A stretch of DNA of 35,335 nucleotides from the NCBI GenBank assembly GCA_016931115.1, contig JAFGFM010000236.1, forward strand, positions 1 to 35,335. Reading direction: 5' to 3'. The number at the start of each line of letters is the position of its first letter. The first letter of the stretch is position 1. A model generated the notes under the pieces. It ran no database searches and was not told the origin of the DNA. It was given only the letters and a program-made list of their open reading frames with translations. The DNA comes from Deltaproteobacteria bacterium (GTDB taxonomy: Bacteria; Desulfobacterota; DSM-4660; Desulfatiglandales; HGW-15). A program made the translations under genes and the position numbers. Of this stretch, positions 1,251-28,208 are shown one piece after another.

Positions 1251-2228
1251 ATGAAAACAACACTTACAAATAACAGGGGGGTCGCGCTGATAATAACCAT
1301 ACTGATGATGGCTATTATTGTGGTGCTTACCCTTCAATTCAACAGCTCCATGAGACATGAGCTGTATGGCGCTGTAAGCTCAAGGGATAATATCCTTTTA
1401 GGTTATATTGCAAAGTCCGGTTACAACCTTGCCATAACCCTTTTAAAGGAGGATGACCCTTCAAGCGATTCATTTCAGGATGACTGGGCCATGTTAGAGG
1501 AGGGTTCAGCCCTGTCAGAAGGGCTCTTTGATGGGGGGAGATTCCAGGTGAAGATATCTGACCTCTCAGGCAGAATACAGATAAACAGCCTGATAAAACA
1601 GGATGGTACATACAATGAGGATCAAAGGGATATCCTTTTAAGGCTGCTCATATCTGAGCCCTTTGAGCTTGAAGAAGAAGAGGCAGAGGATTTAGTGGAT
1701 AATATCAAGGACTGGATTGACGCGGACGGTGAGCCTACCAGGTTCGGGGCAGAGGACCTATACTATCAATCACTTGAAAACCCTTACCCCTGCGCAAACA
1801 GCCCTCTAAGATCAGTCAATGAGATGATAAATATAAGGGGCATAACGCGTAACCTGCTCTTTGGTACTAGAGAGGCCCCTGGATTAAAGGAGTTTATCAC
1901 GGTTTTCGGTGATCCTGGAGGCAGGATAAATATTAATACAGCAGACAGGCGCATCCTTTTAGCCATCTCTGAGGAGATGGACCTGGATATGGTGGATGAG
2001 ATTATTGCATACCGCAATAATGAGGATAATGACCTGATCAGCGACCTCTGGTACAAGGAGGCCCTTGGCACAGATGAGGAGATAATTAAACCAGCCCTCA
2101 TAACCATAAGGAGTTCATATTTTGAGATACTCTCCACAGGCATAAGGGATAGAGCGGTAAAGGAGCTGAAGGCGGTGGTTAAAAGGGCCCAAGGTGATTT
2201 TATAACAATGTCATGGGAGATAATATAA
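1251..2228 (+). CDS. gspK: Type II secretion minor pseudopilin GspK
   Basis: GspK is the large pseudopilin that caps the pseudopilus tip. The 325-residue protein has a short leader ending in Gly10 and a hydrophobic helix starting VALIITILMM. As in other GspK proteins, the usual Glu at +5 is absent, which fits its place at the very tip. The large periplasmic region is strongly acidic (a run EEEEAED near residues 140-146). It ends in a helix-hairpin-helix-like segment with the GGRININTADRR signature found in GspK. It is the third gene of the I-J-K set, three bases after gspJ and 102 bases before gspL. Confidence 0.93.
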   Translation: MKTTLTNNRGVALIITILMMAIIVVLTLQFNSSMRHELYGAVSSRDNILLGYIAKSGYNLAITLLKEDDPSSDSFQDDWAMLEEGSALSEGLFDGGRFQVKISDLSGRIQINSLIKQDGTYNEDQRDILLRLLISEPFELEEEEAEDLVDNIKDWIDADGEPTRFGAEDLYYQSLENPYPCANSPLRSVNEMINIRGITRNLLFGTREAPGLKEFITVFGDPGGRININTADRRILLAISEEMDLDMVDEIIAYRNNEDNDLISDLWYKEALGTDEEIIKPALITIRSSYFEILSTGIRDRAVKELKAVVKRAQGDFITMSWEII

Positions 2229-2330: not shown

Positions 2331-3791
2331 ATGATGCCCGGAAAGATATTAGGAATAGACATCTCAAATAGCTATATATCTGCGGTTCAGGTGATAAGCG
2401 GGTTAAAGGGGTATCAGGTGGTATCATGCTTTTCTGAACCTGTTACTGATAATAATCCACTAAACGCACTTGAAAAACTGGCTGGCCGCATTGACCTGAA
2501 AAGCGACAGGTCTCTTCTCTCTATCCCCCCATCCGGGATCTCCTTCAGAAATATAGAGACCCCTTTTAAAGATGCCAAAAAGATCAGACAGACCCTTCCC
2601 TTTGAGATGGAGAGCCATGTGCCCTTTTCTGTGGACGGGATGATAATAGATTACACCCACTCAGATGCTGAAAACCCCGCTGCCCTGCTTACCGCAGCAG
2701 TTGAAAAGCCCACTGTTTCAGGATATATTGACCTCCTTCAAAAGGCAGGGCTTGACCCTGATATAATAGATGTGAGGCCTGTACCGGTTGTTACATGGCT
2801 TCTGGATCAGGAAAAGAGCCCGTTAAACGGGATCTATCTTGACCTTGAACCGGAACACCCCTCCCTTGTGATCTTTAAGGGCAAAAGGATTGTTGTTATA
2901 AGGGAGTTACCCTGCTCTTTTGATCAAGGTATAGAAGGCCCTGAAGCTGTTGAAAATATCATAAAGGCCATATGCACTGAGACCTCAAAGACCCTCCATT
3001 CCTATAACACACGAGAAAGGAACGGCTTTAAGCCTGAAAGGATCTATTTTGGAGGCAGGCTCTCCGGTTACAGGGATGCACAGTCCATTATAAACAGCTT
3101 TTTTGAGACCCCTTCAGAGAGGTTAAATATCGCAAGAGAGGGTAAGCTCCGCATGGATCTTAACCTTTCTGCGATTTATGACCCGGCATTAATGGATAAC
3201 GCCCTTGCCCTTATTGTAAAGGAGACAGGGAAAAATAGCGGCTTTAATTTCAGGAGAGGTGAGTTCAAGAGTAACAAGAGCGTTCTGGGCCAGGTAAAAT
3301 ACATCAAGACCTCTATCATCATGCTTGCCCTCCTCTTTTTCATGCTGATCATAAACCTGGGCACGGATTACTATTTTGTGAGCAAACACCACTCAGAGGT
3401 TAACAGGGAATTTGATAAAAGGGTGCCCGAATTCAGCGGGATACAAAGCGCCAGGGGAAAGATAACCGCGGCCAGGCAGAAGCTGAAAACCCTCAGCAAC
3501 CCCTCATCAGATCTCTCAAACGAGATAAACCCTGACCAGAGGGTGCTGGATATAATCAGGGACCTGTCGATCAGTATAAATAGTCAATACCCTTTTGATA
3601 TAAACACATTAACAATAAGGAGCAGTGAGGTCACCATAACAGCAGAAACCGACAGCTTTGATACGGTCTCAAAGATAAAAAATGCCCTCAAGTCATCTGA
3701 CCTGTATAAAAACGTTGTAGAAATAAAGCGTGAACAGAAAGGTGATGGAGTGATACTTGACCTGAAGCTTGACATGGCTGATCAGTTATAA
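2331..3791 (+). CDS. gspL: Type II secretion inner-membrane protein GspL
   Basis: GspL recruits the ATPase GspE to the inner membrane and links it to GspM and the pseudopilus. The 486-residue protein begins with an actin-like cytoplasmic fold (KILGIDISNSYISAVQV at residues 5-21), as in GspL and PilM. This runs to about residue 325. A single transmembrane helix at about 327-349 follows, then a periplasmic part with a predicted coiled region and a C-terminal ferredoxin-like domain. Length and domain order fit the family. Either of two adjacent ATGs (2331, 2334) may be used, after an AGGAA sequence. It is 16 bases ahead of gspM. Confidence 0.9.
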   Translation: MMPGKILGIDISNSYISAVQVISGLKGYQVVSCFSEPVTDNNPLNALEKLAGRIDLKSDRSLLSIPPSGISFRNIETPFKDAKKIRQTLPFEMESHVPFSVDGMIIDYTHSDAENPAALLTAAVEKPTVSGYIDLLQKAGLDPDIIDVRPVPVVTWLLDQEKSPLNGIYLDLEPEHPSLVIFKGKRIVVIRELPCSFDQGIEGPEAVENIIKAICTETSKTLHSYNTRERNGFKPERIYFGGRLSGYRDAQSIINSFFETPSERLNIAREGKLRMDLNLSAIYDPALMDNALALIVKETGKNSGFNFRRGEFKSNKSVLGQVKYIKTSIIMLALLFFMLIINLGTDYYFVSKHHSEVNREFDKRVPEFSGIQSARGKITAARQKLKTLSNPSSDLSNEINPDQRVLDIIRDLSISINSQYPFDINTLTIRSSEVTITAETDSFDTVSKIKNALKSSDLYKNVVEIKREQKGDGVILDLKLDMADQL

Positions 3792-3807: not shown

Positions 3808-4326
3808 ATGAAACTTGCAAGGCGTGAAAAACTCTTTATAGGCGGAGCAGGGTTAATCCTGGTGGGCTTCCTGATCATTACACAGCTTGTTGTTCCATTT
3901 TTTAACAGGAAGGATCGACTGGAAAAGGAGGCCAAAGAGCTGGAACAGGTCATTCAGGAGTATGTGCAGGCAGGCGCCGGGGGCCAGGATATTGAGAGTA
4001 TATCAGGGAACCTGGAAAAGGTGCTCGCTGCCCGCGGGGATGAACCCCTTGACTCCTTTATAAACAAAGAGGCCAGCGCAATCGGAATAACGAAGAAAAT
4101 ACCGCGAATGAGGCCTTCAGAAGGCAAAAAACAGGGTGATTTTCTGGAAGATATAGTTGAACTGCCACTTGAGGCGGTGTCTTTAGCACAGCTCACAGAG
4201 TTTTTATACCGGATCGAGAAGCCGGAAAAGTTTATTTATATAAGCAGGATCACCATCAAGGATAACAAGAAGGAAGAGGGCTTTCTTGATGCAACTATCA
4301 GGGTGCTCACATATAAGAGAATATAG
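3808..4326 (+). CDS. gspM: Type II secretion protein GspM
   Basis: GspM is a bitopic inner-membrane protein that partners and stabilises GspL. The 172-residue product has a short cytoplasmic N-terminus (MKLARREKLF), one transmembrane helix at about residues 10-30, a charged heptad-like segment (residues 35-55) that probably forms a coiled coil, and a small C-terminal periplasmic ferredoxin-like domain ending in a beta-rich segment. Sequence conservation in this family is low. The call rests on size, topology and its place between gspL and gspN. Confidence 0.82.
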   Translation: MKLARREKLFIGGAGLILVGFLIITQLVVPFFNRKDRLEKEAKELEQVIQEYVQAGAGGQDIESISGNLEKVLAARGDEPLDSFINKEASAIGITKKIPRMRPSEGKKQGDFLEDIVELPLEAVSLAQLTEFLYRIEKPEKFIYISRITIKDNKKEEGFLDATIRVLTYKRI

Positions 4327-4347: not shown

Positions 4348-5226
4348 ATGCAGGCTTTCAAGAGAAATAATAGATACTGGTACCTGGTATATATAGCGGT
4401 TCTGCTGATCCTCTTTTTATATGTCATGTTTCCTGACAGGGTCTTGAACAGCTTTTTGAGTGCACAGGCGGAAAAGAGATTCCCCGACCTGAATATCAGT
4501 TTTGAGGATACAGGGTTTATATTGCCCCTTGGCATTAAGATCAAAGGGCTTGAGGTCGCCTTGAAGGATAATCCTTATGTGCCCATATATGTATCTGAAA
4601 AGACATCCATAAGGGTTTCTATAACAGGCCTGTTTTTTGGCGGCAATAAAGTAACCTTTACAAGCAGGGTAAATGGCGGGGAGATATCAGGTGTTTTTGA
4701 GGAAAGGGACAAAGAGAGTTGTAACATTACAGTAGATATAGATGACATTATCCTTGATGGAAGGCCCTTTATACACCCGGATACAGGCAAATATATAGAG
4801 GGCATGGTATCAGGAAGGATCAGCTTTACAGGTAATCCTTCAGACTTTATAAAGGGAAAAGGGGATATCTCTCTTGAGGTAAATAAAGGCAGGATAAAAC
4901 CCGCCATGCCCCTGTTTGATATCAGGGATATAGGGTTTGAGAGGATAAGTATAGCAGGCGCCCTTGATAAGATGAGGTTTACAATAAAGGATATGTCGAT
5001 GAAAGGCGGCCCCTTTAATGGCAGCGCAAGGGGTGATGTGCAGTTAAACAGGGATATCTTTTCAAGCGGGTTAATGCTCTCCGCCAAGATAACCCCCGGC
5101 CCTTCAATGGAAAAGGATATACCCGATGTTGCAAGGGCAATAAAGTCATCAGGGATAATGAAAAATGGCAGGCTCATCTTTGATATAGAGGGTACTTTAA
5201 CAAAACCGCTACCAGTAATAAGGTGA
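4348..5226 (+). CDS. gspN: Type II secretion protein GspN
   Basis: GspN is an accessory inner-membrane T2SS protein found in some lineages, with a large periplasmic domain related to AsmA-type proteins. The 292-residue product has one N-terminal transmembrane helix (about residues 12-30). A beta-rich periplasmic part follows, with the family-like pattern of alternating hydrophobic strands and Gly/Asn turns (for example residues 165-180, KGKGDISLEVNKGRI). No catalytic motif is expected. It starts 21 bases after gspM and ends 7 bases before gspC, so it belongs to the operon. A gspN next to gspC is usual in Desulfobacterota-type loci. Confidence 0.82.
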   Translation: MQAFKRNNRYWYLVYIAVLLILFLYVMFPDRVLNSFLSAQAEKRFPDLNISFEDTGFILPLGIKIKGLEVALKDNPYVPIYVSEKTSIRVSITGLFFGGNKVTFTSRVNGGEISGVFEERDKESCNITVDIDDIILDGRPFIHPDTGKYIEGMVSGRISFTGNPSDFIKGKGDISLEVNKGRIKPAMPLFDIRDIGFERISIAGALDKMRFTIKDMSMKGGPFNGSARGDVQLNRDIFSSGLMLSAKITPGPSMEKDIPDVARAIKSSGIMKNGRLIFDIEGTLTKPLPVIR

Positions 5227-5233
5227 TACTCAT

Positions 5234-6130
5234 ATGCTGACAGATATCATGACAAAGAACATTTATACCATTATCAACATAATAGCCATAGCAGTGATAA
5301 TCTTTCTCGGCGTTGATACCTTTTACCGTGTTATTGAGGCCCGGTTTGAAAAACCTGTGGTCAAACAGTCTGCAACAGCGGTAAAGGCCGAGCCCCCAAA
5401 AAGAATTAACACCCGGAAGCTGAGCGACTATGAGGTGATCAACAGGAGAAGCATATTTGGAAAGGCAGGCGCAGGTATAACAGGCAAAATGGATGACCCC
5501 TCACAGGTGGAAAGCCTTGACCCTACCTCTCTTGATGTCATACTCCTTGGCACTGTTGCAGGGAGTGATGAGGATGCCTATGCGGTTATTGAAGATAAGT
5601 CAAAAAGGACACAGGATATCTACCACATTGGCGACAGCATAAAGGATGCAGTTCTGAAAAATATATACAGGAACAAGGTGGTAATAAGGTTCAATGGAAA
5701 GGATGAGATCCTGCTCAAGGATGAAAACCAGGGGCAGAAGGGTGCCTCTTCTTCATCCTTTCCAGGGTTTTCAGGTATGACCCCTCCGCCGGCCACAGGG
5801 GGAGAGCCTGTACAGACCATTACACTGAACAGGACAGAGCTTGACAGCGCCCTCTCTAATATCCAGGAGGTCATGACCCAGGCATCTATTCGGCCGCACA
5901 TGCAGGATGGGGTAGTTGATGGGATGACTATAACAGGGGTCAAGGCAAACTCCATTTTCAGGAAGGCAGGTTTAAGAAACGGTGATATTGTAAAGGGTAT
6001 TGAAGGCATGGAGATCAAAAGCGCGGAGGACCTGCTCTCTATTTATGGCAGTCTCAGGGATAGTGAATCAGTGGGGTTCCAGATTATACGAAGGGGAAGA
6101 GTAAGAAATATTCAGCTCAAGGTCAGATGA
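5234..6130 (+). CDS. gspC: Type II secretion protein GspC with PDZ domain
   Basis: GspC couples the inner-membrane platform to the secretin. The 298-residue protein has a transmembrane helix at about residues 11-30. A homology region (HR) domain at about 60-155 contains the conserved NRRSIFGK and a later LLGTVAG strand; this is the part that contacts the N0 domain of GspD. A Ser/Pro/Gly-rich linker (about 170-195) leads to a C-terminal PDZ domain (about 225-298, core DGMTITGVKANSIFRKAGL). Start ATG 5234 is used; an in-frame ATG at 5249 is possible. A gap of 51 bases precedes the gspA-like gene. Confidence 0.9.
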   Translation: MLTDIMTKNIYTIINIIAIAVIIFLGVDTFYRVIEARFEKPVVKQSATAVKAEPPKRINTRKLSDYEVINRRSIFGKAGAGITGKMDDPSQVESLDPTSLDVILLGTVAGSDEDAYAVIEDKSKRTQDIYHIGDSIKDAVLKNIYRNKVVIRFNGKDEILLKDENQGQKGASSSSFPGFSGMTPPPATGGEPVQTITLNRTELDSALSNIQEVMTQASIRPHMQDGVVDGMTITGVKANSIFRKAGLRNGDIVKGIEGMEIKSAEDLLSIYGSLRDSESVGFQIIRRGRVRNIQLKVR

Positions 6131-6181: not shown

Positions 6182-7753
6182 ATGTACAATTCATTTTTCG
6201 GCCTGACAGAGACACCATTCAATCTGACGCCTGATCCCAGGTATCTTTACCTGAGTTCCAATCACAGGGAGGCGATTGACCACCTCCTGTACGGGATCAA
6301 TGAGAGGAAGGGGTTTATCCTTATTACAGGGGGCATAGGGGCCGGAAAGACCACCCTCTGCCGTGTACTCCTTGACAGGCTTGATGAAAAGACAAAGAGC
6401 GCACTTATACTCAATTCATTCATCTCCGATATGGAGCTTTTAAAACTTATTGTGCAGGAATTCGGTGTTGATATTGACACGAATGCTGGCAGGGAAATCA
6501 CTAAAAAGGACTATGTTGATGCCCTTAACCGGTTTCTTCTCACGAATTTCAGCAACGGGGGCAATGCTGTCCTGCTCATAGATGAGGCGCAGAATCTATC
6601 AAGGGAGGTGCTTGAACAGCTCAGGATGCTCTCAAACCTTGAGACAGAGAGGGAAAAGCTGATACAGATAGTCCTTATCGGTCAGCCTGAACTAAATGAT
6701 ATTATTGGCGCCCCATCGCTCAGGCAGCTTAATGACAGGATACTGGTGCGTTATTTTCTTAAACCCTTAGGCGACATGGATGTAAAGGGGTATGTGGAAC
6801 ACAGGCTTGTTGTTGCTGGCAGTCACGGTAATATCACCTTTACGAGCGGGGCATATAAGAGGTTATATTCAAGGTCTGAGGGGATACCGAGGAGGATAAA
6901 CAGCATCTGTGACAGGTCACTCCTTATAGCCTATACAAAAGGGGCATATACAGTAACCGGAACCATAATCGATAAGGCTGCGAATGACCTGTATGGGGCA
7001 GGTGATGTGATAAAAAAGGGGGGGCTGTTTTCATGGGTAAGGCCCCTGCATATAATCCTGATAGCCTTTATCCTGCTTGTGGCAGCCGGGATTACAGGGT
7101 TTATTTACCTGAAACATATGTATGAGGTCTCATTATCCAGGCAGGTAAAAGAGGTGGTCGCCGCTCAAAAAAAGGAGGAGACACCTGTGGTGAAGGAGGT
7201 CAAAAAGGAGGCTGAACTGTACCTTGACAGTGCAAACAGTATCTCAGCGCTTTTTTCCCTTTTTTACAGGAATAACCCTGATAAGAAAATAAATGATGCA
7301 GGGGGCCGCTTAAGCCTTGAGACATTTGAGCTTGCCCCTGAATATTACATAACACTAAAAAAACCCTTTGTGCTTAAAACAAACAGGGATATGACTAATA
7401 TAAAATATCTGCTCATTACAGGTGTGAATGAAAATGGGGCACGCTGTTCGGATGCAGAGGGAAACGAGAGAGAGATCAGTAAGGAGTTCCTCTTTGAAAA
7501 CTGGGGAGGTTCTGTATCGTGGATATTCCCTGTTTATGCCAGAGACCAGATATATAATATCGGCATGGAAGGCCCGGCTATCAGCCGGTTCCAGAAAACC
7601 CTTCAGTCAAAAGGTTATCTGGTGCAGGTGAACGGGATATATGACATAACCACGTTAAATGAAATGAAACGTTTTCAGGGTGATTTTGGCCTGCGTGTGG
7701 ATGGTGTTGCAGGGCCAAGGACAAATGCCCTTTTATATCAGATGGCGGAATAA
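6182..7753 (+). CDS. gspA: GspA/ExeA-type AAA ATPase with peptidoglycan-binding domain
   Basis: GspA (ExeA) is an inner-membrane ATPase that, with GspB, helps insert the secretin through the cell wall. The 523-residue protein has a cytoplasmic AAA domain with the family start YNSFFGLTETPFNLTPDP. Its Walker A is GGIGAGKTT (50-58), Walker B is AVLLIDEAQ (129-137), and a sensor-like IGQPEL lies at 166-171. A transmembrane helix spans about 289-310. The periplasmic part ends in a peptidoglycan_binding_1 domain (about 460-523, with GIYDITTLNEMKRFQ). It ends one base before the GspB-like gene, so translation is probably coupled. Confidence 0.92.
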   Translation: MYNSFFGLTETPFNLTPDPRYLYLSSNHREAIDHLLYGINERKGFILITGGIGAGKTTLCRVLLDRLDEKTKSALILNSFISDMELLKLIVQEFGVDIDTNAGREITKKDYVDALNRFLLTNFSNGGNAVLLIDEAQNLSREVLEQLRMLSNLETEREKLIQIVLIGQPELNDIIGAPSLRQLNDRILVRYFLKPLGDMDVKGYVEHRLVVAGSHGNITFTSGAYKRLYSRSEGIPRRINSICDRSLLIAYTKGAYTVTGTIIDKAANDLYGAGDVIKKGGLFSWVRPLHIILIAFILLVAAGITGFIYLKHMYEVSLSRQVKEVVAAQKKEETPVVKEVKKEAELYLDSANSISALFSLFYRNNPDKKINDAGGRLSLETFELAPEYYITLKKPFVLKTNRDMTNIKYLLITGVNENGARCSDAEGNEREISKEFLFENWGGSVSWIFPVYARDQIYNIGMEGPAISRFQKTLQSKGYLVQVNGIYDITTLNEMKRFQGDFGLRVDGVAGPRTNALLYQMAE

Positions 7754-7754
7754 G

Positions 7755-8483
7755 ATGAGTTATATCAATCAGGCACTCAAAAAAGCGCAGAAGGAGAAGG
7801 ATGCTGGAAGCATAGGCTACATCAGGTCTATCGGGGGGGGAGGCACGAGCGCAGAGAGGGTGTCAGGCAGGCAGTACATTTATGCGGCCCTGGCAGTTAT
7901 CATACTGGTTGCAGGGGGCATCTTTTATCTCATCAAGTTTAACAGTGAGAAGAGCCATGAAGCAGCTGTAAAACCTTCGTCAATCGAACATGCCGCTAAT
8001 ACGCAAAGGCAAAACAGGGATATTGCGGTTCAGGAAAAGGTAATCTCAGAGAAAGAAAAGGTTAAAGGGCCTGAGAACAATAAAAAAGTCATGACAGATG
8101 CAGTAGAAGAGTTGTATAAAAAGGCGGTTCTTCTGCTCAAGGAGAAGAGGGTAAAGGAGGCTTTAGCCATTTACATGGAAATACTTGATAAAGACCCTGG
8201 CCATTTTGCCTCCTTAAATGATATAGGGGTGCTCTACCTCCAGGAGGGCAAATATACCAGTGCAATTGATAACCTTGAAAAGGCGGTAAGGCTTAATCCA
8301 AGGTTTGTAAACCCCTGTTATAATCTGGCCTGCGCCTATGCCCTGAACAATCAGCCTGAAAAGGGTATGACCTATTTAGAAAAGGCCATTAGCATAAATA
8401 AAGAGGTAAAGGCATGGGCGAAAAATGACCCTGATCTTAAAAACCTCAGGGGTCAGAGCGGGTTTATTGCCCTGATTGAATGA
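7755..8483 (+). CDS. GspB-like membrane protein with TPR repeats
   Basis: The 242-residue protein begins MSYINQALKKAQ, matching the N-terminal signature of GspB/ExeB/PulB-type T2SS assembly proteins that pair with GspA. A transmembrane helix spans residues 41-61. The periplasmic part has a charged linker and about three TPR units (about 115-220), including LNDIGVLYLQEGKYTSAIDN and CYNLACAYALNNQPEKGM. Canonical GspB instead carries a GspB-type C-terminal domain, so this is a TPR variant. The ATG at 7755, one base after the gspA stop, was chosen over an upstream in-frame ATG at 7680 because the family motif starts here. It precedes gspD, which also carries TPRs. Confidence 0.8.
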   Translation: MSYINQALKKAQKEKDAGSIGYIRSIGGGGTSAERVSGRQYIYAALAVIILVAGGIFYLIKFNSEKSHEAAVKPSSIEHAANTQRQNRDIAVQEKVISEKEKVKGPENNKKVMTDAVEELYKKAVLLLKEKRVKEALAIYMEILDKDPGHFASLNDIGVLYLQEGKYTSAIDNLEKAVRLNPRFVNPCYNLACAYALNNQPEKGMTYLEKAISINKEVKAWAKNDPDLKNLRGQSGFIALIE

Positions 8484-8535: not shown

Positions 8536-10917
8536 ATGAGAGTTAAAAATTTCGTAACAATCGGTGCTCTTTTTCTGATGGTCTCCATTTTTACCGCAGG
8601 CACAGTGTACAGCGCGCGTACGAGTGAAGGGGATGAGATAACCTCATCAACCGGTGAAGAGGCCGCATCAGATCAAACTCCCGCCATTAATGAAGATTTT
8701 TATCCACCTGCCATTCCCGCTTCCGAACAGGAAGTGGCGCCGGCTGCCCCTGAAAGGAAGGCAGCAGGGCCGGGGAGAAACACATCACGTGAGAAGGATG
8801 ACTCCCGCCTGATCTCCATTGATTTTGATAATGTGGATATCAACCTTCTGATCAAATTTATAAGTGAACTTACAGATAAAAATTTTCTGGTTGACCCCAA
8901 TGTCAAGGGAAAGGTCACCATCATTTCACCATCCAAGATATCTGTTGATGAGGCCTACAGGGTATTTGAATCTGTACTGGAGGTACATGGCTTCACAACC
9001 GTACCATCAGGGAGCGTTACAAAGATTGTCTCTTTAACAGAGGCTAGATCAAAAAATATCGATACCGTCTTTGGTGATGAAAATGTAAGGGCTGAAGACA
9101 AACTGGTGACCCAGATAATCCCACTTAAATATGCAAACCCGAAAGAGCTTGAAGCGGTATTCAAGCCACTTATTTCAAAGGGCAGCGTAATGGTGTCATA
9201 TGATCCTACAGGCATGCTTATCCTTACTGAAACCAAATCAAACATATCACGACTATTAAAGATAATAGAGGTGCTGGATGTGCCCGGTACAGGAGAGATG
9301 ATAACAGTTATCCCTCTTAAAAATGCATCCGCGCAGACAATGGCAACAAGCATAGGGACAGTTTTCAGGTCAAACACAGGAACAGCCAAAAGGACAGCAG
9401 CTTCTATCGCGGCCTCCCAGATAATCGCTGTACCGGATGAAAGGATGAATGCAATCATACTACTTGCATCAGAGGTTGATACCCTCAAGGTAAAGGGGCT
9501 TATTGACCTGCTTGACAGGGAGATACCAAGGGGTGATGGCGGCATACATGTTTACCCGCTCCAGAACGCAGATGCCGAGGAGATGTCAAAAACCCTGATG
9601 TCCATCCCAAAGGAGACTCCGAAGCAGGGTGAGCAGAAGGGGACAGCCCCTGTGCTATCAAAGGATATCCAGATAGTGTCAGACAAGGCCACAAACTCCC
9701 TGATCATAACCGCTGAAAAGGCCGATTACTTGATACTTGAGAATGTGATTCATGAACTGGACAGACCAAGAAGCATGGTCTACATAGAGGCCCTGATCAT
9801 GGAAGTGAGCATGAGTAACAAGCTTGAGATAGGGGTGCAGTGGCAGGTAGGAGATGTGGGTGACAACGCATCCGTATACAGCGCATCCAATCCCGGTGTT
9901 AATAATTTCCCCTCTCTTAATTCAGACGGAAGTGTGAGTTTGCCTACTGGTCTCACATACGGGGTTCTGGGTAATACTATCAAGATCGGGGGTATAGATT
10001 TTGCCGATATAGGCGCTGTTTTGAGGGCATATGCCAATGATTCCGATGTGCAGATACACTCATGGCCACAGATAATGACCCTTGATAATGAAGAGGCTAG
10101 CCTATCAGTGATCGATAATGTTCCCTATATAACCAGAAGGGATGAAAATACCTCTACCGGCACAACCGGTTACAGCAATTACGACTTCAAGGATGTTGGT
10201 GTAAAACTTACCATAACCCCCCAGATCAACCAGGAAAGGTTTGTCAGACTCAAGATCGATCAGACGGTAAGTCAGGTATTGAGCACAAACGAGGAAGGGC
10301 AGCCCACAACATTTGAAAGAAAAGCCAATACTGTAGTCAGGATAAAGGACGGTCAGACAGTGGTAATAGGCGGTCTTATAGATTCAAAGGACAACAGGAC
10401 AAATTACAGGGTGCCTTTATTAAGCCGGGTTCCGATTCTTGGATATCTCTTCAAATCAAAAACCAATTCACTTGATAAAAAGAATCTCTATATATTCATT
10501 ACTCCCCGCATTGTGACAAATCCCGGAGAGGCAACAGAATTATACGAGGAAAAAAAGGAGCATATTCGATCTATCCAGCAGGGTTCCATCAGGATGAATA
10601 ATGATGGCAAACTTTCTGAAGATATGAGGCTTGCCGGGATCGGTTATAAATATCTTGAACTCAAGGATTATGAAAAGGCCCTGAAATATTATGAAAAGGC
10701 CCTGAAAGAAAACCCAAATAACCCATATGCGATCCTGAATATCGGTTATATTAACCAGGTACAGGGCAACAGCGTAAAGGCGATTGAGATGTATGAAAAG
10801 CTAATAGCTATGGCGCCAAAGGATGTAGCGGATGCATCCACTGACCCTTTAAGGGCAGGTAAAAGGCTTACAGATATAGCAACAGAAAACCTGAAATCAT
10901 TAAAGACGAATAACTGA
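8536..10917 (+). CDS. gspD: T2SS secretin GspD with C-terminal TPR extension
   Basis: GspD is the outer-membrane channel of the T2SS. The 793-residue protein has a signal peptide (cleavage likely near residue 27) and a Pro/Ala-rich linker (45-85). Periplasmic domains follow: N0 (91-168), N1 (190-250), N2 (255-328) and N3 (335-410). The secretin domain spans about 412-650 and includes VPLLSRVPILGYLFKSKT. Instead of a usual C-terminal S-domain for pilotin binding, residues about 692-793 form two TPR-like helical repeats (YKYLELKDYEKALKYYEKAL and the following PYAILNIGYINQVQGNSVKA). The frame is continuous, with no sign of frameshift or recent fusion. It is 52 bases after the GspB-like gene and its stop lies one base before the gspE start. 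Confidence 0.95.
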   Translation: MRVKNFVTIGALFLMVSIFTAGTVYSARTSEGDEITSSTGEEAASDQTPAINEDFYPPAIPASEQEVAPAAPERKAAGPGRNTSREKDDSRLISIDFDNVDINLLIKFISELTDKNFLVDPNVKGKVTIISPSKISVDEAYRVFESVLEVHGFTTVPSGSVTKIVSLTEARSKNIDTVFGDENVRAEDKLVTQIIPLKYANPKELEAVFKPLISKGSVMVSYDPTGMLILTETKSNISRLLKIIEVLDVPGTGEMITVIPLKNASAQTMATSIGTVFRSNTGTAKRTAASIAASQIIAVPDERMNAIILLASEVDTLKVKGLIDLLDREIPRGDGGIHVYPLQNADAEEMSKTLMSIPKETPKQGEQKGTAPVLSKDIQIVSDKATNSLIITAEKADYLILENVIHELDRPRSMVYIEALIMEVSMSNKLEIGVQWQVGDVGDNASVYSASNPGVNNFPSLNSDGSVSLPTGLTYGVLGNTIKIGGIDFADIGAVLRAYANDSDVQIHSWPQIMTLDNEEASLSVIDNVPYITRRDENTSTGTTGYSNYDFKDVGVKLTITPQINQERFVRLKIDQTVSQVLSTNEEGQPTTFERKANTVVRIKDGQTVVIGGLIDSKDNRTNYRVPLLSRVPILGYLFKSKTNSLDKKNLYIFITPRIVTNPGEATELYEEKKEHIRSIQQGSIRMNNDGKLSEDMRLAGIGYKYLELKDYEKALKYYEKALKENPNNPYAILNIGYINQVQGNSVKAIEMYEKLIAMAPKDVADASTDPLRAGKRLTDIATENLKSLKTNN

Positions 10918-10918
10918 T

Positions 10919-12607
10919 ATGAAATCCCTCGGACAGATACTTCTTGAACTAAATCTGGTTACACAGGAACAGCTGGATGAAGGCATAAAGATCCAGGAGG
11001 AAAAGGGCGGCCTGATCGGTGAAATACTTGTCAAAAAAAAGCTTTTATCCGAGGCCGGTCTTCTAAAGGCACTTGGCATACAGTACAATATGGATTATCA
11101 CACTGCCATTTCTGTTAATGAGCTGAATACAGAATTTACAGAAAAGGTGCCCATACAGTATTTGAAAAAGTACTGCATGATACCGCTTATTGGCAGGGAC
11201 TCTAAAAAGATAGCCATAAACAACCCTGTAGACTTCCAGCCCCTGGATGACCTGAAGCTCCAGCTTGGCCTGAAGGATGCAGAGACTGTGCTTGCCCCAA
11301 AGGCTGAGATACTCTCTTCAATAAATTTCATATATGACAGCAGCCAGGACTCGGCAGAACAGGTGCTCCAGGATATGAATGATGAAAGCGGGGATTCCAT
11401 AATCTCGGCAATACAGGAGGCAGGCGACCTGCTGGATGACACAAGTGATGCCCCCATTATCAAGCTTGTAAATGTTATGCTCTCACAGGCGGTAAAAGAC
11501 AAGGCAAGCGACATCCATATAGAGCCGACCCAGAAAGGGCTCAAGATCAGGTACAGGCTTGATGGCATACTTTACGACATGATCTCCCCCCAGAAACAGA
11601 TACAGGCGGCCCTCATATCCCGCATCAAGGTTATGGCAGATATGAACATAGCTGAAAAGCGACTTCCCCAGGATGGTCGTATTGAGATAAGGATAGGCGA
11701 CAAAAACATAGACATCAGGGTTTCAACAATACCTACTGCCTATGGTGAGAGGGTGGTTTTAAGGCTGCTGGACAAAACAAAGATATTTATCAGCGTAACT
11801 GAGCTGGGTATGCCGGATGAAAGGCTTGGTGAATTCAATGAACTCATTAATGCCGCACACGGGATATTTCTTGTAACAGGGCCAACCGGGAGCGGTAAGA
11901 CAACCACGCTTTATGCAGCCCTCTCCCAGATTAACAGCACGGATAAAAATATTATTACCATTGAAGACCCTATAGAATACCAGCTTGAGGGGGTAGGGCA
12001 GATACAGGTAAACCCCAAGATAGACCTCACCTTTTCAAGGGGCTTACGTTCCATAGTAAGGCAGGACCCTGATGTCATCCTTGTAGGTGAGATAAGGGAC
12101 CTTGAGACAGCAGAGATTGCTATCCAGTCTGCCCTGACAGGCCACCTGGTTTTCTCTACCCTCCATACAAATGATGCTGCCAGTGCGGTTACAAGGCTGA
12201 TAGACATGGGCATAGAGCCATTTCTGATCACATCATCGGTTATAGCCATTCTGGCCCAGAGGCTTGTTCGTGTAATCTGCCCCTTATGCAAAGAGGCCTA
12301 TACCCCGGATGAACAATCCCTTTTAAAGGTGGGCATAACCCCTGAGATGCTTAAGGGAAGAAGCATATACAGGGGCAGGGGATGCCCCGCATGCCTTAAT
12401 ACCGGCTATTCCGGCAGGACAGGAATATTTGAACTGCTGATAGTGAATGAGTCAATACAGAACCTGATACTTAAGACCTCTGATTCAAATGCGATAACAC
12501 AAAAGGCGGTTGAGAACGGGATGGTTACCCTGAGACAGAACGGGGCACAGAAGGTGCTTAAAGGCATTACCACGATAGAGGAGGTTTTCAGGGTTACCTA
12601 CCAGTAG
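10919..12607 (+). CDS. gspE: Type II secretion ATPase GspE
   Basis: GspE is the cytoplasmic hexameric ATPase that drives pseudopilus assembly. The 562-residue protein has an N-terminal T2SSE_N/MshEN-type domain (LGQILLELNLVTQEQLDEGI) and then the CTE domain. Walker A is GPTGSGKTTT (321-330). An Asp box and Walker B lie around RQDPDVILVGEIRDLETAE, followed by a His box (STLHTNDA). The two CxxC pairs of the GspE zinc finger are at 454-457 (CPLC) and 489-492 (CPAC). All motifs needed for activity are present. No gspF follows, so gspF presumably lies upstream of the window with gspG and gspH. Confidence 0.96.
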   Translation: MKSLGQILLELNLVTQEQLDEGIKIQEEKGGLIGEILVKKKLLSEAGLLKALGIQYNMDYHTAISVNELNTEFTEKVPIQYLKKYCMIPLIGRDSKKIAINNPVDFQPLDDLKLQLGLKDAETVLAPKAEILSSINFIYDSSQDSAEQVLQDMNDESGDSIISAIQEAGDLLDDTSDAPIIKLVNVMLSQAVKDKASDIHIEPTQKGLKIRYRLDGILYDMISPQKQIQAALISRIKVMADMNIAEKRLPQDGRIEIRIGDKNIDIRVSTIPTAYGERVVLRLLDKTKIFISVTELGMPDERLGEFNELINAAHGIFLVTGPTGSGKTTTLYAALSQINSTDKNIITIEDPIEYQLEGVGQIQVNPKIDLTFSRGLRSIVRQDPDVILVGEIRDLETAEIAIQSALTGHLVFSTLHTNDAASAVTRLIDMGIEPFLITSSVIAILAQRLVRVICPLCKEAYTPDEQSLLKVGITPEMLKGRSIYRGRGCPACLNTGYSGRTGIFELLIVNESIQNLILKTSDSNAITQKAVENGMVTLRQNGAQKVLKGITTIEEVFRVTYQ

Positions 12608-13504: not shown

Positions 13505-15244
13505 TTATCCCCCTGTGTATGCCATGTCTATGCTTTTTATGTATGACTCTATCCCTTTTGAAACGCCTTCAGAGAGAATCTCCTTATAATTATCGCTTAT
13601 AAGTTTCTTTCTTTCTATGCTGTTCGTAAGAAAACCTGTTTCTATGAGTATGGATGGCATCTCTGCGCCTATAAGCACATAGAAGGGGGCCTGTTTTACA
13701 CCCAGGCTCTTGTTCACCTGGTATTTTTTCTTTAAATCCCCCATTATCCCATCCTGTACGCTGTGGGCAAGCCTGCTTGATTCGCTTATTTTGGTATTCA
13801 GCATAAGGTCATTAAGTATTGACTGAAGATCACTTATGTTTTTTTCCGATGTGGCGTTTTCCCTTGCTGCAACCAGCACAGCCTGCTTGTCTGTGGCCAT
13901 ATTCAGGAAGTATGTCTCAATGCCATGTATGGCGCTCTCTTTATGGGCATTCACATGAAGTGAGATAAACAGGTCAGCCTTTTTTATGTTGGCAAAGGCG
14001 GTCCTTTCATCAAGTGGTATAAAGATATCAGTGGTTCTTGTAAGCAGCACCTCACAGCCAAGCCTTTTTTCAAGCTTGGTTTTAAGCCTTTTTGCCATAT
14101 CAAGGACTATATCCTTTTCCTTTATGCCTCCATTTATATAACATCCAGGGTCTTTACCACCGTGACCCGGGTCTATGACTATCCTTTTAACGGAGAGCCC
14201 CAGCTGCCTTGCGAGGGATACTGTTTCATCTGGTTTTTGGGGTTTTTTAATCCCCCTCTCCACAGTTCTTTTCTGCGCCTTCTTTTCACCGCCTGCGGTG
14301 GCCTTGTTATTTCCCTGCACATCTATAACTATCCTGAAGGGGTCATGGAGCCTGAATGTCTTGTAGCCGCTTATGCTTTCTATATCCAGTACAACCCTTA
14401 CAGTATCAGGGGTATACTGGCCTGCCCTCGCCGTCTTTAAAAGGCCGTCCTTTATCGGTATGGTGGTCTCTATATCTTTCCCTACCCGTGCGTTCTTGAT
14501 ATCAAGGTAGAGTCTTCTGGGTTTATCAAGGTCCGGGTCTTTTTTCAGGAGATGATCAATGTAGTCCACCGGTTTATCAAGATCAATTACCACCCTTGTA
14601 TAGGAAGGTGTTGACCAGTGGCGTATATCCTTTACCGTTCTAATTCCGGTCTCCTCTGTGCCGGCTGGTGCAGTGTTCTTTACTGCCTCCTTTTCCTGTT
14701 TTTCACCCAGAAGGACAGAGAGTTTTTCCAGCATGGCCTTTGCGGCAGGCCTCATATCGCCATTAGGGAACTTGATCTCCACCTTGAGAAATTCCACATA
14801 GGCCTGGGTCGTATCCTGTTTATTGGCATAATAGATCTCTCCCATTTTATACTGTGCATCATCAGCGAGCCTGTGATCAGGGTACTCCTTTACAATCCTT
14901 TCATACAGCAAAAGGGCTTCATCCAGATCCTTTTCAAGAGAGGATATCTTATTCAGCCTTGTGTACATCCCCGCAGAATGGAACAGTGCCCATGCTGCCT
15001 GGTCAGTTCCGGGGTAACCGGTATATATTTTCTCATATGCCTCAATACAGTTCTCCCAGTTATGCCTGAAATTCATTCGCTTTGATGACTGGTAGAGTGA
15101 TTCCCTGCTACTGTCAGCGTTCTTAAGTGCCTTTTCAGCTGAGGGGGCCGCACCTGTATTATCCACTGTACTGAAGACTATGAAAAATAACAGGATGTTG
15201 AGGAATAGTATAAAAACAGATCTTTTATTTGCCATATTTATCAT
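13505..15244 (-). CDS. N-acetylmuramoyl-L-alanine amidase (AMIN + Amidase_3) with TPR-like N-terminus
   Basis: This exported zinc amidase would cut the bond between N-acetylmuramic acid and the peptide stem in peptidoglycan. The 579-residue protein has an N-terminal hydrophobic export signal (about 9-32). Two or more TPR-like helical repeats follow (about 55-180, EAYEKIYTGYPGTDQAAWAL), then an AMIN domain (about 203-315) and an Amidase_3 catalytic domain (about 354-579). Likely zinc ligands are His361 (DPGHGG), Glu376 and His430 (SLHVNAH), with catalytic Glu535 (ILIETGFLTN). No LysM is present. The start overlaps the mutS stop by ATGA; an in-frame ATG three codons later is an alternative. Confidence 0.9.
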   Translation of the reverse strand: MINMANKRSVFILFLNILLFFIVFSTVDNTGAAPSAEKALKNADSSRESLYQSSKRMNFRHNWENCIEAYEKIYTGYPGTDQAAWALFHSAGMYTRLNKISSLEKDLDEALLLYERIVKEYPDHRLADDAQYKMGEIYYANKQDTTQAYVEFLKVEIKFPNGDMRPAAKAMLEKLSVLLGEKQEKEAVKNTAPAGTEETGIRTVKDIRHWSTPSYTRVVIDLDKPVDYIDHLLKKDPDLDKPRRLYLDIKNARVGKDIETTIPIKDGLLKTARAGQYTPDTVRVVLDIESISGYKTFRLHDPFRIVIDVQGNNKATAGGEKKAQKRTVERGIKKPQKPDETVSLARQLGLSVKRIVIDPGHGGKDPGCYINGGIKEKDIVLDMAKRLKTKLEKRLGCEVLLTRTTDIFIPLDERTAFANIKKADLFISLHVNAHKESAIHGIETYFLNMATDKQAVLVAARENATSEKNISDLQSILNDLMLNTKISESSRLAHSVQDGIMGDLKKKYQVNKSLGVKQAPFYVLIGAEMPSILIETGFLTNSIERKKLISDNYKEILSEGVSKGIESYIKSIDMAYTGG

Positions 15245-22542: not shown

Positions 22543-23802
22543 ATGACATCAGCTATGAGATTTTCCACAGCACTAAGGCAGCATGTACGAAACAAGATCG
22601 AACAGATGGATCATGCGGATATAGTAGTAGGAGTGCCATCATTTTCCAGCGCCCAGTCAATTGAAAATGTACTCAAAATGATCTTTAAGGGGATTAAACA
22701 ACATTACCCTGATCACAGGGCATTTATAGTTGTTTCCGATGGCGGTTCTACTGATGATACGAGAGAGGTAGCGAGATTAGTCGATCCAAAGTCCTATAAT
22801 ATTGACAGCATAGTAACCATTTACAGGGGGCTGCCAGGCAAGGGATCAGGTTTAAGGGCTGTCCTTGAGATAGCGGCCTTTCTAAAGGCAAGGGCAGTTG
22901 CATTTTTTGACTCTGACCTTATGTCCATCACCCCTGAGTGGATAAAAAACCTTATTGATCCTGTTATGGATGGATATGACTTTGTTGCGCCTGATTATAA
23001 CAGGTATAAACTGGATGGGACCATTACCAATACTATAGCATATAATCTTACAAGGGCGCTTTATGGACAGAAGATACGGCAGCCGATCGGGGGGGATTTC
23101 GGGGTATCACCAGCCCTTGTCAGGTATTACCTTAATCAGGATGTATGGGAAACCGACGTGGCCAAGTTTGGTATCGATATATGGATGACTACCTCGGCAA
23201 TTGTCGGGGGATTCAGGATCTGCCAGGCCAAACTCGGGGCAAAGATACATGGCCACAAGGATCCCACATCGGACCTTGGCCCCATGTTCCGGCAGGTTGT
23301 GGGGACAACATTCCAGCTTATGACACAGTACCAGGATTACTGGATGAATGTGAAAGGATCAAAGGAGGTGCCATCCATCGGCGAGGCGGCTGGCCAGGAG
23401 GCTGAGCCATTTGAGATTGACCATGCAGGCCTGATTGAATATTTCAGGGTTGGGATGAAAAATTTCAGCGGTGTATGGCAGAATATACTGGCTGAAGATG
23501 ACATAAGGTTGATAGGCGACCTCTCTCGTATCGATAAACCTGATCAGTTCAGCCTGCCGATTGAGACATGGGTGAGGATTGTTTATAAGTATGCAGGGAC
23601 ATTTCAGGAATCGCCCAGGCAGCGTTTTAAGCTGCTTGATACAATGATCCCTCTTTATTACGCACGCATAGCCTCGCTTGTAAATGAGTTGAAGGATAAA
23701 AATGCAAAGGAGGCAGAAGATCATTTCGAGGCACAGGCGAAATGTTTTGAAGATCTGAAGGGGTATATGGTTGAGATATGGAACAGGAAAGGGGGCGCAT
23801 AA
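22543..23802 (+). CDS. GT-A glycosyltransferase related to mannosylglycerate synthase
   Basis: The 419-residue protein is a retaining-type GT-A glycosyltransferase without a signal peptide or membrane helix. Visible motifs are SDGGSTDDT (65-73), GLPGKGSG (97-104) and the metal-binding DSD (123-125) in FFDSDLMSITPEWI. They continue with QPIGGDFG (180-187), FGIDIWMTT (about 208-216) and a downstream KIHGHKD. As far as I recall them, the order and form of these motifs parallel GT78 mannosylglycerate synthase and the mannosylglucosylglycerate synthase MggS. Between a phosphatase and GpgS, it may add a second sugar (for example mannose from GDP-mannose) to glucosylglycerate; this is inference. GGAGGT precedes the ATG. 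The GpgS-like gene starts one base after its stop. Confidence 0.75.
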   Translation: MTSAMRFSTALRQHVRNKIEQMDHADIVVGVPSFSSAQSIENVLKMIFKGIKQHYPDHRAFIVVSDGGSTDDTREVARLVDPKSYNIDSIVTIYRGLPGKGSGLRAVLEIAAFLKARAVAFFDSDLMSITPEWIKNLIDPVMDGYDFVAPDYNRYKLDGTITNTIAYNLTRALYGQKIRQPIGGDFGVSPALVRYYLNQDVWETDVAKFGIDIWMTTSAIVGGFRICQAKLGAKIHGHKDPTSDLGPMFRQVVGTTFQLMTQYQDYWMNVKGSKEVPSIGEAAGQEAEPFEIDHAGLIEYFRVGMKNFSGVWQNILAEDDIRLIGDLSRIDKPDQFSLPIETWVRIVYKYAGTFQESPRQRFKLLDTMIPLYYARIASLVNELKDKNAKEAEDHFEAQAKCFEDLKGYMVEIWNRKGGA

Positions 23803-25092: not shown

Positions 25093-26202
25093 CTATTTCA
25101 AATTATAATACCCCCACACCGGAAACTGGGGCGCCTCTGCCTCCTTGCCATCCTCGGGCGGTTTGGGTTTAAGGTATTCAGGCGGCCTTACTATCTCATA
25201 CCTCAGCGCATTGGGTTTACAGGTGATTATGCAGAGCCCGCACCCCTTACACTTTTCAGGTATCACGCGCGCCTTTACCTTTTTAGGGTTGCCCTCCACT
25301 GGTACAAATTCAATAGCCTCAAAATAGCAGCGTTTTTCACACTTTTTACAGCCGGTGCATTCTTCTTCATCCACCACTGCTGCATAGCGGTTAGGGGTCA
25401 TAAGGTCATAACGTTTTGCGCGAGTTATGGGAAAGAGGTTTTCGCAGCAGCAGTCACAGCAGTAACAGTCACCCCAGTGTACAAGGCCTGCCCTTTCCGC
25501 CTCTTTGGCCGTCTCAAGCGCCTCTTCAAGGCTTACCTCCTTTAACAATCGTCCTGGCAGGTTAAAATAGTATTCCCCTCGTGGCCTGTCAAAGGCGGCA
25601 AAGCAGGTCATAAGGGGTTTTTTACAGTCGTGCCCCCATGAGGTGCGGCACCCGCAAGGTGCAAGTATCCTCCTTTTTGCATTCTCTATCTTGAGTTTGA
25701 AATTTTCTTCAGGGAGTATATCCTCAGGTTTTATATTGGGGCTCAGCTCAAGTGCCAGTATGGATGGGGAGATGGGCAGGTTTTTGCCGAACCTTTCAAT
25801 CATCTCCTCTGTGTGTTTCATGAACTCGTGTGACCATTCGTTATAGAAAAAATCCTTCCACAGCGCTTTCTGCTCCTGAGTCATGGCATATGGGCCAGTA
25901 TGTGGCGCAGTATCAGCGCAGCACTCATGGTGAAAGGCAAGGAGTGTGGTGTGAAAGGCATACTGTGTTAACCCCCTTGTTATCATCCCCTTGTCCACCA
26001 GCACATCAAGATCTCTCTGGAGCCCCTTTTCATCGATTTTAAGCCGTGCTGACAATTTCGGGCATGTAGCAGGCTCAAACAGCTCCATGCATATCTTTGC
26101 CTCAACAGGTGTCATGGTTGCCTGCAATACCCTGAGAAATCGTTCTGATTCCCATACCCCCAGTTTATCTGACAGTTCTTTGTAAACAGGATCAAAAGAC
26201 AT
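25093..26202 (-). CDS. Winged-helix / cysteine-rich / 2x[4Fe-4S] ferredoxin-domain protein
   Basis: The 369-residue soluble protein seems to combine three parts. The N-terminal region (about 25-80) reads like a winged helix-turn-helix (TPVEAKICMELFEPATCPKL ... LVDKGMITRG). A middle region has scattered Cys (CGC at 183-185, Cys193, Cys200) and a dense cluster CYCCDCCC at 246-253. The C-terminal ferredoxin domain has two complete CxxCxxCxxxC sets (Cys282/285/288/292 and Cys318/321/324/328). Such proteins occur in anaerobic Desulfobacterota, but I know of no defined function. It starts one base after the hypB stop, so it is probably co-transcribed with hypAB. A redox-responsive or metal-handling role is possible. 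Confidence 0.75.
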   Translation of the reverse strand: MSFDPVYKELSDKLGVWESERFLRVLQATMTPVEAKICMELFEPATCPKLSARLKIDEKGLQRDLDVLVDKGMITRGLTQYAFHTTLLAFHHECCADTAPHTGPYAMTQEQKALWKDFFYNEWSHEFMKHTEEMIERFGKNLPISPSILALELSPNIKPEDILPEENFKLKIENAKRRILAPCGCRTSWGHDCKKPLMTCFAAFDRPRGEYYFNLPGRLLKEVSLEEALETAKEAERAGLVHWGDCYCCDCCCENLFPITRAKRYDLMTPNRYAAVVDEEECTGCKKCEKRCYFEAIEFVPVEGNPKKVKARVIPEKCKGCGLCIITCKPNALRYEIVRPPEYLKPKPPEDGKEAEAPQFPVWGYYNLK

Positions 26203-27211: not shown

Positions 27212-27258
27212 TTAAGGTTATAATTTCCTTTTCAATTTCTGAACATTATGTAGAATGA

Positions 27259-27287
27259 ACAATATGAGGCAGCCTGTTTTATGTCAA
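27259..27287 (-). promoter_or_regulatory. Promoter candidate for hypA-hypB-ferredoxin operon
   Basis: On the minus strand a perfect TTGACA (plus-strand 27282-27287) is followed after 17 bases by TATTGT (27259-27264). Transcription would start about 40 bases before the hypA ATG. It overlaps the leader of the divergent cupin gene. Confidence 0.45.
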
Positions 27288-27320
27288 GAACTTATGATCA
27301 TGATAAAAAAGGGGTATAAA

Positions 27321-28208
27321 ATGGAAAAGCAGCAAGAGCAAAATAAGTATGAAACCTATTTTTTCAGGGATGTAATCCGGGGGGCAATGAAAGAGGAGTG
27401 GGGTGGCCAGATGATCGGGCTTGGCTCAATACAGGGTGATATTATACCTTCTGACGTAAGGATGACATTAGGTGTAACAGCGGTCAGAAGGCCCTACATG
27501 TTTCATGAGCCGCTGCACAAACACCTGTTCACAGAATACTTTTACTTTTTCGGCTCAAACCCGCTCGATATGAATGAGTTTGACGCAGAGGTTCATTATA
27601 CCTTTGGCCCTGAGCGTGAAAAACATATTATAACATCTCCCACAATCGTGACCGCGGCGCCAGGGGTCTATCACTGCCCCCTTAATTATGCGAAGATCAA
27701 TAAGCCCATATATTGCCTTGAGGCCTTCATGACAAGAGGCTATTCCGGTGTGGATTTTGGTGAAGACCTGCTGGAGGTCCGCACAGATGAACCGGATTAT
27801 AACAGGTATTTCACACAGGGTGTTGTAAGGTATAACCAGTGGGGAGGCGAGATGATTAGTTTAAACACTGTACCCGAACATATCCTGCCTGCCGGTGCAA
27901 AACTGAATATGGATTTAACAGTGGTAAAAAAACCATATATATATAATGGCACAACTCACAAACACAATTTTACAGAGTTCTATCTCTTTTTCGGATCAAA
28001 CCCAATGGATATGAACCAGTTTGATGCGGAGGTGGAGTTCTGCTTTGGCAAAGAAAAGGAAAGATATTTGATCACAGGCCCGACAATAGTGGTGGTGCCG
28101 CCAGGTGTTTTTCATTCGCCATTGAATTTCAGCAGGGTCAATAAACCGATATATTTTCTGGAGGTTTCTCTTACATCCAGATACCGTGCGACTGATTTTA
28201 AAGGTTAA
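27321..28208 (+). CDS. Double-cupin protein made by internal duplication
   Basis: The 295-residue soluble protein contains two similar cupin halves (about 12-140 and 161-290). Each has a full set of likely metal ligands: His66, His68, Glu72 and His118 in the first, and His213, His215, Glu219 and His265 in the second. Shared blocks include FFGSNP, DMN-FDAEV, TIV---PGV-H-PLN and NKPIY, so the halves arose by tandem duplication. The ATG at 27321 is chosen because AAGGGG lies just upstream; an ATG at 27255 is open but adds a non-family stretch. I do not recognise the substrate. Bicupins include dioxygenases, decarboxylases and isomerases. It is divergent from hypA. Confidence 0.75.
   Translation: MEKQQEQNKYETYFFRDVIRGAMKEEWGGQMIGLGSIQGDIIPSDVRMTLGVTAVRRPYMFHEPLHKHLFTEYFYFFGSNPLDMNEFDAEVHYTFGPEREKHIITSPTIVTAAPGVYHCPLNYAKINKPIYCLEAFMTRGYSGVDFGEDLLEVRTDEPDYNRYFTQGVVRYNQWGGEMISLNTVPEHILPAGAKLNMDLTVVKKPYIYNGTTHKHNFTEFYLFFGSNPMDMNQFDAEVEFCFGKEKERYLITGPTIVVVPPGVFHSPLNFSRVNKPIYFLEVSLTSRYRATDFKG

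Follow-up and report, generated by a model that had tools for sequence, protein, structure and literature searches.

The T2SS secretin GspD encoded in the window, the 35,335-nucleotide stretch analyzed here from the genome of a sulfate-reducer-like Deltaproteobacteria bacterium, ends in a tail that Pfam models and structure prediction identify as two true TPRs and a capping helix, following a full type II secretin. Purifying selection acts on the tail, so that it counts as a selected part of the protein. It probably helps to seat the pore in the envelope, and we put it slightly below an even chance that it gives the secretin a docking or stapling module of its own on the outer-membrane side. 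By analogy, the tail may do from within the secretin what a separate helper protein does for other secretion pores. GspD, TPRs, and the fusion of envelope modules to secretins are each known, and their combination is new; no TPR-tailed T2SS secretin was found in a literature search that had most subscription papers outside its reach. The tail is frequent in the lineages that have it and so has very likely entered sequence databases without remark.

A Full-Length GspD with Two Predicted C-Terminal TPRs

GspD of the window matches the equivalog model TIGR02517 over residues 95–669 (499 bits, cut-off 351) and has the complete domain set of a T2SS secretin, namely PF21305 (N0), three PF03958 domains (N1–N3 type), and PF00263 (secretin), with other gsp genes alongside in the order K, L, M, N, C, A-like, B-like, D, E (Table 1). 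Beyond this core, residues 701–766 exceed the Pfam gathering score (TPR_1, 45.1 bits versus 27.8; also TPR_2, TPR_8, and TPR_19), and in the AF2 model the predicted helices 695–708, 712–725, 730–742, and 746–759 pair as in TPRs, with a pLDDT of about 93–98 in the repeats, and are followed by a capping helix at 778–792. Models above the gathering score and paired helices together qualify the tail as a TPR domain. The initial annotation had described two TPR-like repeats over about 100 C-terminal residues and had proposed a structure prediction; the prediction, now run, places a TPR fold within residues 692–793 and, with the Pfam score, bears the description out.

The gspD open reading frame is unbroken, with its stop codon at 10915–10917 and the gspE start at 10919. 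The earlier view that the frame is continuous, with no assembly error, is upheld: the same tail, 88% identical, is present in a congeneric genome (G001), it recurs in dozens of genomes, and dN/dS between these two species is 0.15 for the tail, close to the 0.11 of the secretin domain and the 0.12 of the N domains. An assembly or frame error as the source of the tail is thus out. The GC and GC3 of the tail are slightly lower than those of the GspD core.

Conservation is 2.40 bits at the 10 TPR positions that we take to face the groove, versus 1.52 bits at 20 other exposed positions (Mann-Whitney p 0.002); Asn735 and position 741 are among the conserved groove residues. This better conservation of groove positions in the aligned sequences suggests that the tail's TPR groove has a constant ligand. 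A PDB fold search with the tail returned TPR proteins in general and pointed to no single function, because TPR folds resemble each other. The tandem-TPR domain of LpoP (6w5q) matches the tail with Z 12.0 and 1.9 Å over 89 residues, tied with many unrelated TPR chains; TadD was neither among the PDB fold matches listed for the tail nor in the first 60 of a further listing.

Table 1. Coordinates of the T2SS genes, GspD segments, and stand-alone tail relatives
Feature	Position	Strand	Evidence
gspK	1251-2228	+	NF037980, 142 bits (cut-off 130)
gspL/PilM-like	2331-3791	+	PF11104, PF05134
gspM-like	3808-4326	+	PF04612, 7.5e-06, slightly under cut-off
gspN	4348-5226	+	TIGR04411, 108 bits (cut-off 50)
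gspC	5234-6130	+	NF041515, 154.6 bits (cut-off 150)
GspA/ExeA-like AAA ATPase, C-terminal peptidoglycan-binding domain	6182-7753	+	PF13401, 1.1e-26; PF01471, 1.3e-10
MshN/GspB-like protein	7755-8483	+	Cytoplasmic start MSYINQALKKAQKEKD, one hydrophobic segment, periplasmic TPRs
gspD	8536-10917	+	793-aa secretin with TPR tail; N-terminal signal sequence, no lipobox
Secretin (C) domain, GspD residues 499-660	10030-10515	+	PF00263, E 3.9e-52
Retained S-domain-like helix, residues 663-687	10522-10596	+	AF2; alignments with solved secretins; shared with tailless GspDs
TPR tail, residues 692-793	10609-10914	+	Pfam TPR models; AF2 tail model; alignments
TPR 1, residues 695-725	10618-10710	+	Pfam and AF2 models
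TPR 2, residues 730-759	10723-10812	+	Conserved N-P-Y-A-x-x-N-x-G from residue 729
Capping helix, residues 778-792	10867-10911	+	Conserved L-x-x-x-A-x-x-N-L; outside TPR consensus
gspE	10919-12607	+	TIGR02533, 694 bits (cut-off 630)
TPR + SPOR lipoproteins of G013	L150:2277-3278, L151:1562-2467		

Stand-Alone Relatives of the Tail

A profile built from 15 GspD tails was run on 61 relatives and found three non-GspD proteins far above the generic TPR background. Two of them, both from G013 (E 5.9e-32 and 3.6e-24), combine a lipobox (by eye), a tail-like TPR pair, and a C-terminal SPOR domain, and the third, from G050 (E 2.0e-27), adjoins an AMIN+SPOR protein and by eye has no lipobox. Weaker matches in G154, G372, G162, and G024 (E 2.5e-17 to 8.5e-14) lie within the range of ordinary multi-TPR proteins; three of these (G154, G372, and G024) have a lipobox by eye, some being small lipoproteins, and that of G154 also has a CpoB/YbgF domain (TIGR02795, 9.4e-32). 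The genes beside the small TPR lipoproteins L199:5068-5823 (G154) and L202:3915-4376 (G024) look by eye like genes for polysaccharide export (Wza-like) and like FecR-like genes.

A model of the capping motif, made from GspD tails only, finds the G372 protein (0.005) and one G013 protein (C21; 0.024), reaches those of G050 and G024 only at 1.0 and that of G154 at 30, and leaves two of the seven relatives, G162 and the other G013 protein (C303), unmatched. The motif is thus clearly common to two of the seven and marginally to two more, and, since so few are recovered, only a few relatives have good support for homology outside the TPRs. The PilF/PilW family was considered as the source of the tail and rejected: TIGR02521 matches TPR proteins in all 61 genomes, with one match above cut-off, and a model that matches everywhere does not discriminate. 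We take these profile matches to mean that the tail is one of a small family of TPR modules on the outer-membrane side, a family that includes lipoproteins with domains that bind the cell wall.

LpoP and CpoB, TPR proteins of the outer membrane or the periplasm, regulate PBP1B, and the tail could be a cell-wall docking site of this kind, which would recruit or restrain a peptidoglycan enzyme and so fit the wide pore into the wall. The SPOR domains of the stand-alone relatives and the CpoB/YbgF domain of a weaker one are consistent with such a site, as are the C-terminal SPOR domains that some deltaproteobacterial GspD relatives have at the same place and the presence of LpoP among the fold matches, tied though it is with many TPR proteins. 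The four weaker relatives are, however, no better than generic TPR proteins, and in the window operon the GspA-like protein already supplies a peptidoglycan-binding domain; we consider cell-wall docking unlikely, though a serious candidate. The docking or stapling module proposed above also gains from the fact that, outside GspD, the tail as a whole is most closely related to envelope proteins (G013 and G050).

S-Domain, Distribution, and Operon Context of the Tail

In the window GspD, a predicted helix of 25 residues follows the last secretin strand and leads through a short linker into the TPRs. Alignments (phmmer) with solved secretins extend to residue 680 (XcpQ, 5wln) and residue 686 (E. 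coli, 5wq7), ends that cover the first S-domain helix. Its motif, N-P-x-E-A-x-x-x-Y-x-x-K, is found in most GspDs, tailed or tailless, and close tailless GspDs end 31–51 residues past the last secretin strand. Since the proximal S-domain helix aligns and is kept with or without the tail, the tail was added after it, in place of the distal segment. The claim that the tail stands in place of the usual S-domain is therefore right for the distal, pilotin-binding segment, which is missing, and wrong for the proximal helix, which is retained. In PulD, the S-domain is the last 60 residues after the secretin domain (PMC3542185).

Pilotin-dependent secretins carry a Hyd-x-Ala-Phe motif in S-domain helix 12 (PMC6532946). 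This motif was found in none of the 94 GspDs read, tailed or tailless, and pilotins of the AspS type (PF16549) or the PulS/OutS type (PF09691) in none of 61 genomes, the window's own included, again whether tailed or tailless. The window GspD, with neither the motif nor a pilotin in its genome, is thus no pilotin-dependent secretin by these marks. The initial annotation had proposed that the tail replaces pilotin-dependent targeting and that tail-bearing genomes be checked for gspS. The check found neither pilotin type, and none of the related secretins combined the tail with a normal S-domain/pilotin pair. The replacement itself predicts a pilotin in tailless relatives, and none was found. 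Because pilotins are absent even from tailless sisters, the tail cannot be named a substitute for something that those keep, and a contrast between tail and pilotin loss has no power in these 61 genomes; a tracking of pilotin loss by the tail was rejected, all 61 being without a pilotin whatever their tail state.

In the form of a fused pilotin, the tail would itself take over from a pilotin lipoprotein in targeting GspD to the outer membrane. It does occupy the pilotin-binding position on the secretin, TPR lipoproteins are pilotins elsewhere, and the PulS/OutS and AspS types are absent; but the tail has no lipid anchor, and a lipobox is found neither in the window GspD nor in 43 other GspD sequences (three cut at the N-terminus), so the tail alone cannot take the lipoprotein route, and we judge a fused pilotin to be improbable. 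Liposecretins (HxcQ type) are secretins with a lipidated N-terminus, to which the window GspD, without a lipobox, does not belong. Two other secretins of the same genome, PilQ-like (L215:6051-8066) and MshL-like (L214:7454-8929), have N-termini that by eye are lipobox-like, unlike GspD.

The initial annotation had also suggested a family search for secretins with TPR tails, and the tail proved to be conserved. Counting matches to a profile of the secretin end plus tail that reached at least position 207 of 239, we found it in 7 of 17 genomes of the window's family. It occurs in at least 51 of 146 genomes (at least 131 with any profile match at 1e-20) from the order of G146, a Desulfobacterota order other than the window's with tailed loci of the Desulfobulbaceae/Desulfocapsaceae type, where it is confined, among the matches listed, to families f20, f105, f120, and f118. 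Across the phylum, at least 11 of 395 genomes have it (at least 303 with any profile match at 1e-22), with f1, f20, and f105 among the matches listed. Named tailed relatives are Desulfobulbaceae, Desulfofustis (Desulfocapsaceae), and one Desulfobacterales record; the cultivable Desulfofustis glycolicus (L047) is among those with the tail on GspD. In a tree of 84 GspD cores, built by a quick method with the tail excluded and 10 of the 94 sequences dropped as short, duplicate, or redundant, the 39 tailed sequences do not form one clade, at least six changes of tail state are required, and several tailed members of the window's family group with tailless ones. Over 42 tailed sequences, tail identity rises with core identity (rho 0.59; none of 2000 permutations above 0.27). 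The window's family by itself shows no such correlation (rho 0.12, p 0.61); its tails are more alike than the cores would predict, and tail exchange within it is possible.

Other C-terminal extensions occur as well. One GspD (L168:7561-10041; G487, family f112) has a long linker and several TPRs with almost no similarity to the tail profile (domain E 0.15), which may have been acquired in a separate fusion. Two GspD relatives from deltaproteobacterial/myxobacterial genomes (L044:7905-10424 and L046:7881-10322) carry a SPOR domain in the place of the TPR tail (PF05036, 1.1e-8 and 5.3e-8), and L045 is similar by eye only.

Since many close relatives are tailless, the tail is not essential to this secretin type. 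The repeated changes of tail state and these tailless relatives would fit a lineage decoration of little function, easily gained and lost, but the dN/dS of the tail between the two species and the conservation of its groove positions speak against it, and we hold this to be decidedly improbable.

The gene just upstream of gspD had been described as GspB-like with TPRs. The TPRs (TPR_1, 61 bits), the position, and the topology are borne out, whereas membership of the GspB family is not, the GspB HR domain (PF16537, T2SSB) having no match at E up to 1. Furthermore, the start of the protein resembles that of an MshN-like protein (L214:1715-2767) in the MSHA-type locus of its own genome; "GspB-like" therefore holds for position and topology rather than family. 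Of the two components of a GspAB-assisted T2SS, the window thus has a GspA ATPase with a peptidoglycan-binding domain (283.6 bits to TIGR03015, under the cut-off of 324.5) and not a GspB with an HR domain. A TPR version of GspB in the gspB position is recurrent in the window's order. Elsewhere in the window, a gene for an AmiC-like cell-wall amidase with a long N-terminal extension (13505–15244, minus strand) is convergent to the T2SS operon, with mutS and a gene for a LapB-like TPR protein upstream of it on the same strand, and four sizeable open reading frames (22543–23802, 25093–26202, 27255–28208, and 28282–30429) have no NCBIfam match at E up to 1e-20.

The A/B-like pair lies upstream of gspD in all five assessable tailed loci of the window's family, in none of eight of the Desulfobulbaceae/Desulfocapsaceae type, and in 10 of 17 assessable loci without this tail (one, L166, starts at B). 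Of the long loci, 13 of the 23 tailed ones and 17 of the 19 without this tail (L152–L170) entered these counts, L168 being counted among the latter although it bears a different TPR extension. Left out were loci whose contig starts within gspD (L136, L161, and L162) and loci whose neighbors or gspD could not be read with a simple ORF caller (L037, L041, L047, L139, L141, L143, L144, L145, and L149); outside the counts, and without this tail, L043 has the pair and L044 and L046 do not. The idea that the tail tracks the TPR-bearing GspB-like gene was rejected on these counts, and the earlier suggestion that the tail binds this protein, favored by the adjacency of the genes in the five operons of the window's family, is unsupported and very improbable, given that the gene adjoins 10 of 17 GspDs without this tail and none of the eight tailed Desulfobulbaceae-type ones and that the known binding site of GspB on the secretin is at the N-terminal end (PMC9239104).

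Proposed Role and Comparison with Known Systems

Solved T2SS secretins are 15-mers with the S-domain outside the barrel just under the membrane, where bound pilotins staple neighboring subunits (PMC9239104, PMC6532946). Each window GspD subunit ends in the S-domain helix, a short linker, the two TPRs, and the capping helix, so that, from the location of solved S-domains outside the barrel near the membrane, about 15 TPR modules would ring the periplasmic rim of the assembled pore, the place that pilotins take in secretins dependent on them. As a docking or stapling module, the tail could use its conserved groove to grip a peptide of the neighboring subunit, stapling and stabilizing the barrel as bound pilotins do; alternatively, the ligand may be a peptide of an outer-membrane or cell-wall protein that helps to seat the pore. 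Having no lipid anchor, the tail is not a self-targeting pilotin. In the window operon, it would act beside the GspA-like/TPR-B pair, a kind of pair by which pilotin-independent secretins such as ExeD are assembled; the tail's share of the work may be larger in Desulfobulbaceae-type operons, in which gspD does not adjoin the pair.

The predicted TPR fold, its position after the S-domain helix, purifying selection, and conservation across families and in the groove all argue for docking or stapling. The GspAB route serves T2SS secretins that do without a pilotin (PMC6532946), and the window encodes an A-like/B-like pair. TPR lipoproteins serve other secretins, and the window's genome has a TPR lipoprotein gene directly after pilQ and another in its Tad locus (lipobox by eye). 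Together with the stand-alone relatives, the TPR lipoproteins of other secretin classes give indirect support to a TPR module with an envelope or pilotin-like job. Against docking or stapling, the presence of the tail follows neither GspAB presence nor pilotin absence, and two TPRs make a short groove compared with the five of TadD.

A broader reading joins these elements. The tail would be a TPR partner for assembly, covalently joined to the secretin, and the first equivalent in a T2SS of the TPR lipoproteins that serve the secretins of type IV pili, the Tad system, and a rhizobial type III system; its rim ring of about 15 modules would staple subunits or dock an envelope lipoprotein, and the pore would assemble without a pilotin and, in the Desulfobulbaceae type, without GspAB next to gspD. 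Taken jointly, this is an unlikely combination. How secretins with no known pilotin are targeted to and retained in the outer membrane is an open question for most T2SSs outside the well-studied proteobacteria, and the TPR-fused secretin is a compact natural experiment: GspDs with and without the tail occur in one bacterial family, so that removal or exchange of a single domain would reveal what it does for assembly.

Like Aeromonas ExeD, the window GspD has a full core, an S-domain helix without Hyd-x-Ala-Phe, and a GspA-like ATPase with a peptidoglycan-binding domain encoded nearby. ExeD, however, ends in a flexible S-domain tail rather than in two TPRs and a cap, and, unlike the GspAB of ExeD, the B-like protein here has TPRs and no match to the GspB HR domain.

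TPR proteins are recurring partners of secretins, a theme to which the tail ties the T2SS and for which we found no T2SS example in the part of the literature within reach. The TPR lipoprotein TadD assists the Tad secretin, its groove holding the last residues of RcpA (PMC10499894), TPR lipoproteins also assist type IV pilus secretins, and Y4yS, a TPR lipoprotein of 165 aa, was proposed to assist a rhizobial type III secretin (PMC4311626). The tail resembles PilF/PilW/Tgl, TadD, and, as proposed, Y4yS in placing a TPR module at the outer-membrane end of a secretin; those are separate lipoproteins, whereas the tail is covalently attached and unlipidated, and TadD has five TPRs to its two. Indeed, the tail has no lipobox and scores 26.5 bits to TIGR02521, far under the cut-off of 154 and over the TPRs only, as a protein outside the PilF/PilW/TadD type would. 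It may nevertheless work like these partners, by analogy, without being a member of their family.

LpoP, the tandem-TPR regulator of PBP1B, is anchored in the outer membrane (PMC7267771). The tail may be compared with LpoP and CpoB for its tandem TPRs and end helix, about 100 residues in all, although many unrelated TPR chains match its fold as well as LpoP does; those two are separate proteins that act on a penicillin-binding protein, and no sequence-level link between them and the tail was found. Finally, Legionella LspD has an N-terminal SPOR domain (PMC9239104) and the L044 and L046 secretins a C-terminal one, and in all of these, as in the window GspD, an accessory envelope module is built into the secretin, with the difference that SPOR binds peptidoglycan and TPRs bind proteins.
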